Assembly (NCBI GenBank): GCA_030694905.1
Contig: JAUYTY010000030.1
Location: forward strand, 1 to 39,616
Direction: 5' to 3'
DNA from: Eubacteriales bacterium
GTDB lineage: Bacteria > Bacillota > Clostridia > Tissierellales > Dethiosulfatibacteraceae
Length of the DNA stretch: 39,616 nt
A model generated the notes under the pieces. The model did not search any database, had not been told where the DNA came from, and was given only the letters and a program-made list of their open reading frames with translations. Both the position numbers and the translations under genes were made by a program. Shown piece by piece: positions 28,116-39,608 of this stretch (positions are counted from its first letter, which is position 1; each line of letters starts with the position of its first letter).

Positions 28116-28144
28116 TTGACAGGCATCGATTAATATCCTATAAT
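28116..28144 (+). promoter_or_regulatory. Consensus promoter of the aspS-gatCAB operon
   Basis: TTGACA (28116-28121), exactly 17 bases and TATAAT (28139-28144): a perfect sigma-A consensus match. Transcription would start near 28151, just before the T-box leader. Confidence 0.9.
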
Positions 28145-28150
28145 CATTAA

Positions 28151-28435
28151 AAATATGCAAAATCAAAAACAATGACAGGAAGAGTACATAAGCTGTGATG
28201 TCAAAGCGAGCCGGTGGTGGTGAAAGTCCGGTACAGAGCGTTTATCGAAGAACATCCTCGAGTTTCCAACCGAAATCTTTTGAGAGTAGATTTGGACGTG
28301 GGCTGCACGTTAGAGCGGATAGGTATCGATATATTCTGTACTGATTAAAGTGAGCTAAACGCTAATTAAGGTGGCACCGCGAATATAACCTTCGTCCTTA
28401 AATATATAATATATATTTGAGTATGAAGGTTTTTT
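28151..28435 (+). promoter_or_regulatory. T-box riboswitch leader, probably Asn (with overlapping Glu codon)
   Basis: Stem I has the loop-E strand AGTA (28183-28186) and the distal-loop motif GAGCCGGTGGTGGTGAAAG. The 3' strand of the specifier loop reads GAA-GAAC-A: loop-E GAA at 28247-28249, then GAA (28250-28252) overlapping AAC (28251-28253), followed by the usual A. The T-box sequence AAGGTGGCACCGCG is at 28368-28381; its UGGC bulge would pair with GCCA of a tRNA having discriminator G, as in tRNA-Asn or tRNA-Asp. Uncharged tRNA would stabilise the antiterminator and allow expression of aspS-gatCAB. The terminator alternative is listed separately. Confidence 0.92.
28387..28435 (+). terminator. 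Regulated terminator of the aspS-gatCAB T-box
   Basis: AACCTTC (28387-28393) pairs with GAAGGTT (28425-28431), with an inner A/T-rich palindromic stem, followed by six to seven Ts. The 5' arm is shared with the antiterminator. Confidence 0.88.
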
Positions 28436-28481: not shown

Positions 28482-29774
28482 ATGGAAAGAGTACTGGTTA
28501 GAGATTTAATGGAGTTGCAAGAGAAAGAGATAAGGCTTTTTGGATGGATACACAATATCAAGACTTTTAAGGAATTTTCCTTTGTTTATCTAAGGGACAG
28601 ATCGGGAATTGTGCAGATGATTGTTGATGATGAAAAAATCCTGTCATCTCTCAAACTGGAGTCTTCAGTCAAGGCAAGCGGAAGAGTGCAGATGAATGAA
28701 AAGGCGCCTGGTGGTGTGGAGATCATTGTCAGTGATCTTGAAGTTGTTGGAGAGGCTAAGTATGATTTGTTGCCCTTTACAATCAATGGCATTGATATAA
28801 ACGCGTCCCTGGATAAGCAATTGGATTACAGAACCATCTCCTTAAGAAGAATGGACAGGCGAGCGGTGTTTAAAGTTCAGCAGGAAATTGTGCAGGCCTA
28901 CAGGGATTTTTTGACTAAAGAAGGTTTCACCGAGATACATACACCAAAGATAATCGGAATGGAAACCGAAGGCGGCGCGGACATTTTCATGCTGGATTAT
29001 TTTGGCACCCGGGCCTTTTTGGCCCAGAGTCCACAGTTCTACAAACAGATGATGGTGGGGGCAGGGTTTGAAAGGGTGTTTGAAATAGGAGCGGCTTATA
29101 GAGCCGAGCCCCACAGCACATGGCGGCATCTGAACGAATATATGAGTCTGGATCTTGAAATGGGCTTCATAGAGAGTGAAGAGGAAATCATGGACCTGGA
29201 AGAAAGATTGATCAAATATATGATCAGCCATCTGAAGACAGCCTGCGTTGAGGAATTGAAAATCATGAAGGCGGCGCTTCCGACAATCGGAACAATTCCT
29301 AGAATAACCCTGTCTGATGCACAAGGAATTCTATTGGAGAAATTCGGCAAGAAGTCGCCTGTTGGCAACATCGATGCTGAAGGAGAAAAGATTTTTGCCC
29401 AATATGTCAAAGACGAGTATGATTCAGATTTTGTTTTTCTGACCAAATATCCCGCCTCTAAAAGACCGCTTTACACGATGCCGGATGACACGCTTGAAGG
29501 CATGACAAAATCATTTGACTTGATATTCAAGGGCTTGGAAATCACAACAGGCGGCCAGAGGATACATGATTATGACATGCTTGTGAAAAGCATTCTAAAA
29601 TCCGGTGGGAAGACTGAGGATTTCGATTTCTATCTTGAATCATTTAAATATGGCGTTCCACCTCATGGGGGATTGGCAATAGGACTGGAAAGAATCACCA
29701 TGATGTTTCTTGGTTTGGACAACATCAGAAAAGCCACACTGCTTCCAAGAGATATCAATAGGGTTAAGCCGTAA
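28482..29774 (+). CDS. aspS: Aspartyl-tRNA synthetase, archaeal-type, probably non-discriminating
   Basis: A 430-aa class II synthetase. Its length and sequence fit the archaeal/eukaryal-type AspRS lacking the large bacterial insertion, which in bacteria with GatCAB usually charges both tRNA-Asp and tRNA-Asn with Asp. The N-terminal OB-fold (about 1-100) begins VRDLMELQEKEIRLFGWIHN. Motif 2 is FEIGAAYRAEPHSTWRHLNE and motif 3 is GLAIGLERITMMFLGLDN. It is followed at once by gatC, gatA and gatB, which convert Asp-tRNA-Asn to Asn-tRNA-Asn; this supports relaxed specificity, though that is inference. SD GGAGGAAG. Controlled by the T-box upstream. Confidence 0.93.
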   Translation: MERVLVRDLMELQEKEIRLFGWIHNIKTFKEFSFVYLRDRSGIVQMIVDDEKILSSLKLESSVKASGRVQMNEKAPGGVEIIVSDLEVVGEAKYDLLPFTINGIDINASLDKQLDYRTISLRRMDRRAVFKVQQEIVQAYRDFLTKEGFTEIHTPKIIGMETEGGADIFMLDYFGTRAFLAQSPQFYKQMMVGAGFERVFEIGAAYRAEPHSTWRHLNEYMSLDLEMGFIESEEEIMDLEERLIKYMISHLKTACVEELKIMKAALPTIGTIPRITLSDAQGILLEKFGKKSPVGNIDAEGEKIFAQYVKDEYDSDFVFLTKYPASKRPLYTMPDDTLEGMTKSFDLIFKGLEITTGGQRIHDYDMLVKSILKSGGKTEDFDFYLESFKYGVPPHGGLAIGLERITMMFLGLDNIRKATLLPRDINRVKP

Positions 29775-29804: not shown

Positions 29805-30089
29805 ATGACTGTTACTAAAAAAGAAGTTGCCTATATTGCCGGATTGGCTAATCTTAGGTTTGATGATGCGTCAATTGAGAAAATAGCGGATGAGTTTTCA
29901 AAAATACTCAATCACTTTGATAACATAAGCAAGGAAGATCTGAGCGGAATCGAAATGTATTCCTTTGCGGACGAACCGCTAAGGCTTAGACCGGACAAGG
30001 CGGTGCCATTCGAAGAAGCTGGAGCGCTGTATGATAACACCAAATCCATGCAGGATACAGCAATCAAAATACCAAAAGTTGTGGATTAG
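29805..30089 (+). CDS. gatC: Asp-tRNA(Asn)/Glu-tRNA(Gln) amidotransferase subunit C
   Basis: A 94-aa GatC, the small stabilising belt of the GatCAB complex. VAYIAGLANLRFDDASIEKI and FSKILNHFDNISKEDLSGIE are the usual features, and the C-terminal half wraps around GatA. SD GGAGGT. It lies 30 bases after aspS and 11 bases before gatA. Confidence 0.95.
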   Translation: MTVTKKEVAYIAGLANLRFDDASIEKIADEFSKILNHFDNISKEDLSGIEMYSFADEPLRLRPDKAVPFEEAGALYDNTKSMQDTAIKIPKVVD

Positions 30090-30100
30090 GAGGTGTCGGG

Positions 30101-31573
30101 ATGGATATTGCGGGTTTGAGCATAAAAGATATAAAGAGTGGCCTTGAAGCAAAGGTATTCTCTGATGAAGAGCTAGTCGGTTCTTATCTGGAAAGGATAA
30201 AGAAATACGACCACAAGATTAAGGCATTTTTAACGGTTTGCGAGGATGAAGCCATCTCTTTGGCTCGTGCTGTAGACCGAAAAATAGCACAGGGTGGTAC
30301 CCTAGGACCAATGGAGGGCGTGCCTATAGGATTGAAAGATAATATCTGCACAAAGGGCATCAGGACAACCTGTGGCTCAAAGATGCTCACGGACTTCATA
30401 CCCCCATATGACAGCACTGTAGCGAAAAAACTGAAAGAACAGGGTGCGATTATAATGGGGAAAATGAACATGGATGAGTTTGCCATGGGGTCATCCAATG
30501 AGAATTCAGCCTTTTATCCAACAAGAAATCCATGGGACACGGGGAGAGTTCCAGGCGGATCTTCAGGGGGATCAGCCGCCGCAGCTTCCGCAGGATTTAC
30601 GGCAGTTACTTTTGGCTCTGATACAGGTGGGTCTATCAGAATGCCCGCATCCTTCTGTGGTTTGGTAGGAGTGAAACCAACCTATGGAACAGTCTCAAGG
30701 TATGGGTTGGTCGCGTTTGGTTCATCGCTGGATCAAATTGGACCATTAGGCCGTAGTGTGGAGGATGCAGCTTATGCGTTTGAAGCCATACAGGGCTTTG
30801 ATCCCAAGGATTCAACCTCATTGCAGCAAGGGTACAAGACTGACTACGACAGGTTGATGAAACAGGGAATACGGGGCATGAAAATCGGCATTCCCAAAGA
30901 GTTTTTCGGTGAGGGTGTGGACAGGGAAATCAGGAATAGTGTTCTTGCCTCAGCATTAATACTGGAGAAAGCAGGCGCTCACGTAGAGGAGTTCAGCCTC
31001 CCAATCACAGAAACCGGTTTGTCGGCCTACTATATCATCTCATCTGCGGAAGCAAGCTCAAACCTTGGTAGATATGATGGGGTGAGATATGGCTATCGAA
31101 CGGATTCATTCAAGAACTATGAGGAACTGGTTTTGAAATCCAGAACTGAGGGCTTTGGAGATGAAGTCAAGAGACGTATCATGCTTGGGACTTATGTTCT
31201 GTCATCAGGCTATTACGACGCTTACTACAAAAAAGCCATGCTGTTCAGGCAAAAGGTCAAGGCTCTATATAAAAGCGCGTTTGAAAAATATGACACAATC
31301 ATCTCACCAACGGTGCCTGTGTTGCCTTTTAAACTGGGAGAAAAAACATCTGATCCTCTCCAGATGTATCTGGCAGATACGCTTACGGTCAATGTCAACA
31401 TAGCTGGTATACCTGCCATCTCGATGCCGTCTGGATTCAGCAGCACCGGATTGCCGATAGGGGTGCAGTTTATGGGTGACCATATGTCCGAAGATAAGCT
31501 GTTCAGATTTGCTTATGTTTTGGAAAAGGAATTAAAACTGGATACGATGCCGGATCTTGAGGGGGTGCAATAA
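30101..31573 (+). CDS. gatA: Asp-tRNA(Asn)/Glu-tRNA(Gln) amidotransferase subunit A
   Basis: A 490-aa amidase-signature subunit releasing ammonia from glutamine for transamidation on GatB. The Ser-cis-Ser-Lys triad is visible: Lys79 in GVPIGLKDNICT, Ser154 in PGGSSGGSAAAAS and Ser178 in GSDTGGSIRMPAS, at the same numbering as staphylococcal GatA. The C-terminal GIPAISMPSGF and LPIGVQFMG segments are typical. SD AGGAGGTG. Its TAA shares a base with the gatB ATG (TAATG), so the two are translationally coupled. Confidence 0.97.
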   Translation: MDIAGLSIKDIKSGLEAKVFSDEELVGSYLERIKKYDHKIKAFLTVCEDEAISLARAVDRKIAQGGTLGPMEGVPIGLKDNICTKGIRTTCGSKMLTDFIPPYDSTVAKKLKEQGAIIMGKMNMDEFAMGSSNENSAFYPTRNPWDTGRVPGGSSGGSAAAASAGFTAVTFGSDTGGSIRMPASFCGLVGVKPTYGTVSRYGLVAFGSSLDQIGPLGRSVEDAAYAFEAIQGFDPKDSTSLQQGYKTDYDRLMKQGIRGMKIGIPKEFFGEGVDREIRNSVLASALILEKAGAHVEEFSLPITETGLSAYYIISSAEASSNLGRYDGVRYGYRTDSFKNYEELVLKSRTEGFGDEVKRRIMLGTYVLSSGYYDAYYKKAMLFRQKVKALYKSAFEKYDTIISPTVPVLPFKLGEKTSDPLQMYLADTLTVNVNIAGIPAISMPSGFSSTGLPIGVQFMGDHMSEDKLFRFAYVLEKELKLDTMPDLEGVQ

Positions 31574-32997
31574 TGTCAGCTTATGAAACAGTTATCGGAC
31601 TTGAAATCCATGTGGAGCTTGCTACAGAATCAAAGATATTTTGCTCTTGCCCCACAACCTTTGGCGCAGAGCCAAACAAGAACACCTGCCCTATCTGCAT
31701 CGGACTACCGGGAGTCATGCCTGTTTTGAACGAAGCGGTTGTAAATCTTGCTGTCAAAGCGGGTATTGCGCTGAACTGCGATATCAATCTGATCAATAAG
31801 ATGGACAGGAAGAACTATTTTTACCCTGATTTGCCTAAAGCCTACCAAATATCGCAATTCGATCTGCCTATTTGTGTCGGCGGACATGTGGATGTAGAGG
31901 TTGAAGGGAAAAAGACCAGCATTGGACTAACCAGAATTCACATTGAAGAGGATGCCGGGAAACTGATCCATCTGGAGGAAGAGGAAACAACTCTGATTGA
32001 TTACAATAGGGGAGGAGTTCCCCTTATAGAGATCGTCACAGACCCTGATATCAGATCAGCGGAAGAGGCTGTTGAATTCCTGAAGACATTGAGAGCCGTT
32101 CTGGTTTATTCCGGGATATCTGATTGTCGTATGGAGCAGGGATCAATGAGATGCGATGTCAACATCTCTGTCAGGGAATTTGGGTCTGATATACTCAATA
32201 CAAAAGTCGAGATTAAAAACATGAACTCCATGAAGGAAGTCCATAAAGCCATTAAGAAGGAAGAAGCTAGGCAAATACAGCTTTACAGCTATGGAGAGGG
32301 GCATAAGGTCATTCAGGAGACCAGAAGATGGGATGCCGCTAAAGGAAGGACGATCACAATGAGGACCAAGGAGGACGCACAGGATTATCGTTATTTTCCT
32401 GAGCCGGACCTTCCGCCTGTTATTATTGCAAATGAAAAGGTGATAGATATAGAGAAATCACTTCCCGAATTGCCAACAGCCAAAAAAGAAAGAATGATGG
32501 AGAAATATGGCCTTTCACTCAATGAAATCGGAATACTGATTGAAGAAAAATCCGTTGCGGATTTTTATGAAGCGGTTGTCAACCTTTCTGGTGAACCGAA
32601 AGAGGCGGCAAACTGGATTATAACCGAGCTGCTGAGAGTACTGAAAACAGAAGTGGATATCCCCATTGCACCCGGGCAGCTGTCAGATCTGATAATGGAA
32701 GTCAAGAAAGGAACCATAAGCAGGACTGCAGCTAAAGACGTTTTCGAGGAGCTCGTTCTATCAGATAAGTCTGTGGAGCAAGTCATAATAGAAAAAGGAT
32801 TGAAGCAGATAAGCTCAACGGATGAGCTGGAAGGTATAGTCGATGCCGTCTTGAAGGATAATCCTCAAGCTATAGAGGACTACAAGTCAGGAAAGAGCCA
32901 GTCATTTGGATTCTTGATGGGACAGTGCATGAAGGCCTCAAAAGGAAAAGGCAATCCAGGGATTGTCAAATCATTGCTCGAGAAGGCTTTAGGGTAA
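31573..32997 (+). CDS. gatB: Asp-tRNA(Asn)/Glu-tRNA(Gln) amidotransferase subunit B
   Basis: A 474-aa GatB, the kinase/transamidase subunit that phosphorylates tRNA-bound Asp or Glu and receives ammonia from GatA. It starts YETVIGLEIHVELATESKIF; the zinc site is CSCPTTF...CPICIGLPG, followed by KNYFYPDLPKAYQISQFD. The C-terminal YqeY-like tRNA-binding region ends FLMGQCMKASKGKGNPG. It is complete. The last 9 bases overlap the 3' end of the convergent M23 peptidase gene, and no terminator was seen between them. Confidence 0.97.
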   Translation: MSAYETVIGLEIHVELATESKIFCSCPTTFGAEPNKNTCPICIGLPGVMPVLNEAVVNLAVKAGIALNCDINLINKMDRKNYFYPDLPKAYQISQFDLPICVGGHVDVEVEGKKTSIGLTRIHIEEDAGKLIHLEEEETTLIDYNRGGVPLIEIVTDPDIRSAEEAVEFLKTLRAVLVYSGISDCRMEQGSMRCDVNISVREFGSDILNTKVEIKNMNSMKEVHKAIKKEEARQIQLYSYGEGHKVIQETRRWDAAKGRTITMRTKEDAQDYRYFPEPDLPPVIIANEKVIDIEKSLPELPTAKKERMMEKYGLSLNEIGILIEEKSVADFYEAVVNLSGEPKEAANWIITELLRVLKTEVDIPIAPGQLSDLIMEVKKGTISRTAAKDVFEELVLSDKSVEQVIIEKGLKQISSTDELEGIVDAVLKDNPQAIEDYKSGKSQSFGFLMGQCMKASKGKGNPGIVKSLLEKALG

Positions 32998-34290
32998 CAA
33001 GTCATACTCGAGAACCTGCCAGGTGTTGACGTATGTATTGTATATGCTGATTGACCAATGAAGATGAGGTCCTGTGGAAAAGCCGGTGGATCCCATGGTT
33101 CCGACGAAATCGCCCTTGCTGACGAAATCGCCTTCTTGTGAAGAAAGCGTGTCCAAATGATAGTAGCTGGTGAACACACCCAAACCATGGTCAATGATGA
33201 TTGTATTGCCGGTCAGTATCAGATATTCAGACAAGACAACATTACCGCTGTTGCAGGCAAAAATTTCCGTGCCGGTTGGCGCGGCAAGATCCAAGCCTGA
33301 ATGACGGCTGGAGGTGATTCGGTCATTGACATATCTTATTTCACCATAGTCTGTTGTCAGCACATGATCATCCTTTACGGGCAGTATGAACTCACCGTCC
33401 CATAGTTTTTTCATAGTTGATACAGTCCTGGCGGCCTGTGCCCTTTCACGAAACTCCTTATAGGCTGCGTCGCTATTGGTTGTTTCATATACCTCTTCGC
33501 TGATATACAGATACTGTGTGACGAAATTTTTATCATTTATATTCACGGTGTGGGATAGATTCGCAATGATCTGTTCCACATCGTTTTTTATTTCAATATT
33601 GACAACATAATCCCCCGCCTTGGCCCAAATATCGACGGGAATGAAATACACGAGAGAATCACCCATAGGGGCACTTGAAATCGAGCCATGGGACAAATCT
33701 GTCGTCAGCTCGGTGCGATAACCGTCTTTTATGTTTGAAACTGTGAGCACAAGAATATTGCCTGGAAAATTGTCAACGGTTTTGATTTGAAGCTCGGGAT
33801 GAAGGGTGACATCTAAATCAACCCTGTATTGAAGTGATCCATAGTAGTCCTTGCCGTCAAGCTTTTCCCAAGTGACATCGATCACAACCGGGTAGGCTCC
33901 ATTTTTATCAATGGAAGCCAACAAATCCGATATGGATTCGTAGACGACAGCGTCATTATCCTTCAGCCGAATGGTCATATGATTAGGTTCGATGTCTGAT
34001 TTAAGCAAAGTATTGGCGGTTTCATCTATTTTTAGACTTTTAATGGTTGTGTCAGATTTTGACAGAACCGAATACAGGCCTAATGGATTTTTGTAATAAA
34101 AATCACCTGAAGGTGACAAGACGACAATCTCTCCTTCAGTCTCTATGGTGAGATCCAGCCTTTCCTCATAGGGCGACTTGAAGAAATAGTTGGGATTCAG
34201 GCTGATTTCATTATTGACATTATTAGCGGTCGCAATTGTTATAAGTATGATTAAGAACAATGCAGCTATAAATATCATGATTTTTCTCAT
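32989..34290 (-). CDS. M23-family metallopeptidase (LytM domain), membrane-anchored or secreted
   Basis: A 433-aa protein. An N-terminal hydrophobic segment (IMIFIAALFLIILITIATA, about residues 4-22) is a signal anchor or signal peptide. The extracellular middle (about 40-300) is beta-rich and not recognised. The C-terminal LytM/M23 domain (about 305-425) has the zinc ligands in SRHSGLDLAAPTG (HxxxD) and GPHLHWSISIY (HxH), so it should be active on peptidoglycan cross-bridges. The closing part resembles sporulation- or cell-division-associated peptidases. It overlaps gatB by 9 bases tail-to-tail. Its promoter was not identified. Confidence 0.9.
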   Translation of the reverse strand: MRKIMIFIAALFLIILITIATANNVNNEISLNPNYFFKSPYEERLDLTIETEGEIVVLSPSGDFYYKNPLGLYSVLSKSDTTIKSLKIDETANTLLKSDIEPNHMTIRLKDNDAVVYESISDLLASIDKNGAYPVVIDVTWEKLDGKDYYGSLQYRVDLDVTLHPELQIKTVDNFPGNILVLTVSNIKDGYRTELTTDLSHGSISSAPMGDSLVYFIPVDIWAKAGDYVVNIEIKNDVEQIIANLSHTVNINDKNFVTQYLYISEEVYETTNSDAAYKEFRERAQAARTVSTMKKLWDGEFILPVKDDHVLTTDYGEIRYVNDRITSSRHSGLDLAAPTGTEIFACNSGNVVLSEYLILTGNTIIIDHGLGVFTSYYHLDTLSSQEGDFVSKGDFVGTMGSTGFSTGPHLHWSISIYNTYVNTWQVLEYDLLP

Positions 34291-39372: not shown

Positions 39373-39608
39373 TAAGCAAATATTAAATCTGTTGATTGAG
39401 ACAAGTATGTTGATGGAAGCTCAAGCGAGCCGGCGGTGGTGTGAGTCCGGCAGTGAAAATCGATTGAATAGAACTCATGAAGAGGTTCCAGGAAATTGCA
39501 GTATTGGAACCCGGTTAAAAACCGTTATAATGAAAGAGATGAAGCAATTGCTTTAATTAGAGTGGTAACGTGGATGATGTCCGCCTCTTGACTGGAGGCG
39601 GATTTTTT
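39373..39608 (+). promoter_or_regulatory. T-box riboswitch leader, probably Leu (gene beyond window)
   Basis: Stem I shows AGTA (39403-39406), the distal-loop GAGCCGGCGGTGGTGTGAG and the 3' specifier strand GAA-CTC-A (39471-39477), so the codon is probably CUC for leucine. The T-box sequence AGAGTGGTAACGTGG is at 39559-39573; its UGGU bulge would pair with ACCA, discriminator A, as in tRNA-Leu. The AACGTGG part departs from the usual ACCGCG. The regulated gene, probably leuS or a leucine synthesis or transport gene, lies past the window end. Confidence 0.85.
39580..39608 (+). terminator. Regulated terminator of the second T-box
   Basis: TCCGCCTC (39580-39587) pairs with GAGGCGGA (39595-39602), 8 bp with a 7-base loop, followed by TTTTTT. 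Confidence 0.9.

Follow-up and report, generated by a model that had tools for sequence, protein, structure and literature searches.

The aspS2-gatCAB operon and its leader

The window (the whole stretch of 39,616 nucleotides that was analysed) belongs to a metagenome-assembled genome (MAG) of 221 contigs and encodes aspS2, gatC, gatA and gatB downstream of a T-box leader (Table 1). The aspS2 product, named aspartate--tRNA(Asn) ligase, exceeds the cut-offs of both NF003483 and TIGR00458; its nearest record comes from the MAG Clostridiales bacterium 38_11 (97%), followed by versions from a Tissierellales MAG (79%) and then from Dethiosulfatibacter (77-78%). The combination of a non-discriminating AspRS with gatC, gatA and gatB identifies this as an operon for tRNA-dependent Asn transamidation, and the family to which AspRS2 belongs suggests that it charges tRNA-Asn. 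The original prediction of an Asn specifier in front of a transamidation operon is thus upheld.

The same genome also encodes AspRS1 (L016), AsnRS (L019), a single GluRS (L021) and AsnA (L164). GlnRS is recovered as two pieces at contig ends (C196 and C218), the middle of glnS falling in an assembly gap; both pieces are 90% identical to the intact GlnRS of a sister genome, and the neighboring genes occur in the same order. Since GlnRS is present, transamidation of Glu-tRNA-Gln is not required in this genome, and the need of GatCAB for Glu-tRNA-Gln, which had been offered as the rationale for a Glu codon in the leader, fails as an explanation.

Table 1. Coordinates of the leader, the operon and a second T-box within the window
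Feature	Position	Strand	Basis
Promoter: TTGACA (28116-28121), 17-nt spacer, TATAAT (28139-28144)	28116-28144	+	direct match to sigma-70 consensus
T-box leader, RF00230, full length	28163-28402	+	cmscan 116.8 bits, E 2.2e-25
Specifier loop, 5' side: AGGA 28177-28180, loop-E AGUA 28183-28186	28177-28186	+	sequence and Rfam alignment
Loop-E (S-turn) GAA	28247-28249	+	Rfam alignment
Overlapping GAA (Glu) triplet, -1 register; first base G at 28250	28250-28252	+	sequence
AAC (Asn) specifier in the canonical register; the next base is the purine A28254	28251-28253	+	Rfam model position
Antiterminator hairpin	28366-28401	+	fold of 28335-28402
Intrinsic terminator: hairpin 28387-28431 and U run	28387-28435	+	fold of 28335-28435
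aspS2, archaeal-type non-discriminating aspartyl-tRNA synthetase	28482-29774	+	NF003483 550.8 bits, TIGR00458 414.5 bits
gatC	29805-30089	+	TIGR00135 54.1 bits (cut-off 47.1)
gatA	30101-31573	+	TIGR00132 595 bits
gatB, sole gatB of the assembly	31573-32997	+	TIGR00133 582 bits; single genome match
T-box at window end, specifier AGA (Arg), UGGU bulge	39383-39591		120.9 bits

The position of the promoter places the expected transcription start near 28151. The leader spans positions 1-219 of the RF00230 model, whose gathering score is 93. Its AGGA element pairs with UCCU at 28255-28258, closing the specifier loop, and the 3' side of this loop (28247-28258) reads GAA GAACA UCCU, such that the GAA and AAC triplets share two bases. 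The antiterminator displays a 7-nt bulge, UGGCACC (28372-28378), in which UGGC (28372-28375) is the partner of the tRNA 3' end. Folding of 28335-28435 yields the terminator at -25.2 kcal/mol (z -3.25); it overlaps the antiterminator, and folding predicts both, as a mutually exclusive pair. Stem I folded in isolation did not give the T-box fold, an expected outcome for loop-E and T-loop motifs, which are unscored by energy models. The leader is a canonical transcriptional T-box, beyond what chance would produce, and the anticipated overlap of GAA and AAC is indeed present at 28250-28253. By itself this overlap is not improbable, as a G is expected at the base preceding a specifier about one quarter of the time; its conservation across relatives (see below), judged from the aligned leaders, goes beyond chance.

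Specifier register and acceptor-end pairing

The genome carries 15 T-boxes, whose specifiers were assigned from the downstream gene and the codon, with gene names read by eye from the protein sequences. Other than the aspS2 leader and the AGA T-box at the window end, they precede ilvA, ileS and an ilv operon (all AUC), serS (UCC), trpB (UGG), metG (AUG), proS (CCU), valS (GUA), a cysteine gene (UGC), leuA (CUC), pheS (UUC), thrS (ACU) and tyrS (UAC). Two of the Ile (AUC) T-boxes, those before ilvA and the ilv operon, are arranged divergently and back-to-back (contig C129 of G000, 32715-33290; L001 and L006), while the gene controlled by the AGA T-box falls past the contig end.

In 12 of the 15 a single base separates the loop-E GAA, or its aligned variant, from the specifier, and in three (serS, trpB and proS) the two abut directly. 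Since the spacing within one genome can be zero or one nucleotide, the distance from loop E cannot settle which register is read. Accordingly, the two rulers of the original prediction, one measured from loop E and favoring GAA and the other measured from the downstream side and favoring AAC, are in little real conflict. The pairing of UCCU with AGGA makes AAC-A the end of the specifier loop, and AAC is hence in the canonical register, termed +0 in TBDB (PMC7778990). The base 3' of the specifier is a purine in all 15 T-boxes, and in those with a long Stem I this purine is functionally critical (PMC7583486); the GAA register of the aspS2 leader would instead be trailed by a C. The 3' stem and the purine therefore both point to AAC.

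The acceptor end provides a second line of evidence. Antitermination requires pairing of the tRNA acceptor end with the UGGN sequence (PMC4695836), and in each of the 14 other T-boxes of this genome N pairs with the cognate discriminator (drawn from this genome or its relatives), 13 of these pairs being Watson-Crick and that of serS a U-G wobble; they comprise UGGU with A, UGGA with U (Cys and Thr) and UGGC with G (Trp). The tRNA-Asn and tRNA-Glu genes are absent from the assembly, and their discriminators were taken from related genomes, that of the sister species among them. In the latter (G005) the discriminator is G73 in tRNA-Asn(GUU), tRNA-Asp(GUC) and tRNA-Gln(UUG), and A73 in tRNA-Glu(UUC). 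Every tRNA-Asn seen among the relatives ends in GCCA, and a pattern search recovered the tRNA-Glu 3' halves of 13 genomes with AAC leaders, G005 included, all of which end in ACCA. The proposed fit of UGGC to a discriminator G consequently holds for tRNA-Asn, and both the AAC specifier and the bulge suit an aspartate--tRNA(Asn) ligase; for tRNA-Glu it does not hold, because A73 would leave a C-A mismatch, the sole one among the T-boxes of this genome.

These contacts bear on a two-codon reading of the leader, in which uncharged tRNA-Asn (through AAC) or tRNA-Glu (through GAA) would each cause antitermination by way of a one-base shift, balancing the supply of Asn with that of Glu/Gln. This appears unlikely here. 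We infer that such a mechanism would call for a bulge that pairs with both tRNAs, whereas UGGC pairs with one, and the GAA register has a C where the purine should stand. In its favor, docking on Stem I is independent of the discriminator, and the published dual specificity was reported as binding of both tRNAs; moreover, N is U in many leaders of this kind, and a U could pair with A73 and G73 alike.

Conservation of the GAAC overlap in aspS2 leaders

Comparison of 80 aspS2 loci (L039-L118), in which some leaders were read by eye, recovered 49 AAC specifiers, 30 GAC specifiers and one locus without a T-box (L094). In 47 of the 49 AAC loci aspS2 is visibly followed by gat genes; the contig of L042 ends early, and L110 is an exception that combines an AAC specifier with an aspS2 lacking nearby gat genes. 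None of the 30 GAC loci has gat genes behind aspS2. Hence, the specifier of the aspS2 leader indicates linkage, AAC occurring with gatCAB and GAC where aspS2 stands apart from it, L110 excepted. Twelve aspS2 loci (L052, L057, L060, L062, L064, L065, L067, L069, L097, L103, L111 and L116) additionally show partial tandem T-boxes, in which a single Stem I precedes a pair of antiterminator/terminator units spaced by roughly 80-160 nt; no second Stem I was seen between the units at these 12 loci. Partial tandem T-boxes are already known, and their mode of action has been termed unknown (PMC7583486).

The base before AAC is G in 43 of the 49 AAC leaders. The six exceptions are L051 and L082 with A, L063 with C, and L071, L073 and L077 with U, the last four having a one-base insertion. 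These four belong to Intestinibacter and its relatives, and the insertion in the specifier loop removes the Glu codon and retains AAC; one strain reads GAA-A-CAAC-G, in which a Gln codon (CAA) overlaps the Asn codon, and the others read GAA-A-UAAC. In 29 GAC leaders (omitting L086, where loop E directly abuts GAC) the corresponding base is A in 16, G in five, C in four and U in four. Mapped on the AspRS2 protein tree, this position shows four changes among the AAC leaders and 10 among the GAC leaders; within the former, neither AAC nor the loop-E GAA changes at all, and unconstrained columns change 10-24 times. Four changes against 10-24 in free columns imply some constraint on the G before AAC. 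The proposed check on the conservation of GAAC therefore has a positive outcome, though it yields no absolute rule: the overlap is kept in relatives, if variably, and GAAC is conserved to a lesser degree than AAC itself, six relatives having lost the G and none AAC. The latter asymmetry again disfavors a two-codon function.

Asn leaders of genes unrelated to Glu offer a control, albeit a small one (n=15). The bases before AAC are A, A, U, G, A, G, G and G in asnA leaders, G in asnB, G in asnS, and G, A, G, G and A in hisS-aspS leaders, giving G in nine of 15. The hisS-aspS operons themselves (L264-L268) have AAC (Asn) T-boxes with an odd Stem I, hisS being the first gene despite the Asn specifier. 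A loosely defined IUPAC pattern of the Asn T-box, run over 398 genomes, returned mostly chance matches, and just the T-box-like ones were pursued. G is more frequent in gatCAB-type leaders than in GAC leaders (42/48 vs 5/29; Fisher 7e-10, ignoring kinship), and so it is in the other Asn leaders (9/15 vs 5/29; Fisher p 0.007, ignoring kinship); purines predominate before the specifier in both the other-Asn and the GAC sets. G is thus usual in Asn leaders generally, and more strongly so in gatCAB leaders (42/48 vs 9/15, p 0.03, again ignoring kinship).

The excess in gatCAB-type leaders over both other sets is what a two-codon function would predict. The enrichment in Asn leaders at large accords with a different account, to which we would assign a little under even odds and which refines the preferred reading given below, namely that G is kept for the fidelity or structure of Asn leaders without any sensing of Glu. 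An A at this position would create a Lys codon (AAA) overlapping AAC, and A is the prevalent base in GAC leaders. Against this account, two gatCAB leaders do have A, as do five of the 15 Asn leaders in the control set, and the stronger preference for G in gatCAB-linked leaders, in comparison with a small set, is left over.

The distribution of GlnRS gives a mixed picture. Besides the split copy of this genome, a search of 46 genomes (one of them counted twice) gave 34 with a GlnRS above the cut-off, which counts against a two-codon function, while all 11 genomes without GlnRS retain G before AAC, as two-codon sensing would have it. All six losses of G lie in GlnRS-bearing genomes, yet this association is not significant (p 0.31), nor is that between N of UGGN and the absence of GlnRS (p 0.49).

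Relation to known T-boxes and proposed mechanism

A two-codon T-box of an aspS-gatCAB operon has been described in Clostridium acetobutylicum (Saad et al. 2012, 2013, via PMC4052509, PMC4206432 and PMC7778990), and both tRNAs reportedly bind its leader in vitro and in vivo (Saad et al. 2013, via PMC4052509). According to the descriptions through which it is known here, it shares with the present leader the operon type, the overlap of Glu and Asn codons and transcriptional control; the likeness proposed at the outset is therefore confirmed, and the arrangement is of an already published type to which the present leader adds a further family. This precedent (PMC4052509) counts in favor of a two-codon reading. 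However, in contrast to the C. acetobutylicum case, GlnRS and AsnRS are both present here, and A73 of tRNA-Glu in the relatives opposes UGGC, making the Glu arm doubtful in the present leader. The leader of Clostridium guangxiense (L066) shares GAAGAACA and UGGC with the present one, and its tRNA-Glu likewise has A73. Asn T-boxes of asnA, asnB and asnS in other Firmicutes (L154, L155, L159, L161, L163, L175, L178, L258, L262 and L263) share the AAC specifier and a similar Stem I and antiterminator; they differ in having A, U or G before AAC and in that the gene product yields Asn or Asn-tRNA directly. The Asp T-boxes of unlinked aspS2 (e.g. L090, L097 and L109) precede a homologous gene at the same leader position, but have a GAC specifier, a free preceding base and no gatCAB behind.

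Reported binding of tRNA-Glu to Stem I, on the published descriptions, and the A73 mismatch could be united if tRNA-Glu bound Stem I via GAA, could not cause antitermination and so damped the response to Asn. This is improbable, given that GAA is not followed by the purine that stabilizes the duplex. Equally improbable is that the conserved GAA acts as a decoy register, by which the switch might report uncharged tRNA-Asn relative to the tRNA-Glu pool even with GlnRS present.

The leader is a transcriptional T-box that most likely senses uncharged tRNA-Asn and is probably not a productive sensor of Glu. The GUU anticodon of tRNA-Asn would pair with the AAC specifier; when the tRNA lacks asparagine its GCCA end would pair with UGGC, the antiterminator would win, and the operon would be transcribed. 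AspRS2 would then form Asp-tRNA-Asn, which GatCAB would amidate to Asn-tRNA-Asn. As AsnRS, GlnRS and AsnA are also found in the genome, the operon most likely constitutes a backup, an indirect route to Asn-tRNA that would be switched on when asparagine shortage blocks direct charging. The acceptor-end and stacking contacts disfavor a productive use of tRNA-Glu, and the frequent occurrence of G in Asn T-boxes of Glu-unrelated genes speaks likewise against the working Glu half of the original prediction. The overlapping GAA is conserved in the sequences compared, but in this organism it probably does not make the leader a working sensor of Glu.

The leader carries the published two-codon arrangement into another family. 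The specifier of aspS2 leaders tells whether the gene is linked to gatCAB, and the discriminator of tRNA-Glu and the presence of GlnRS offer two simple checks that are relevant to the question of whether a Glu arm of this kind is functional in general.
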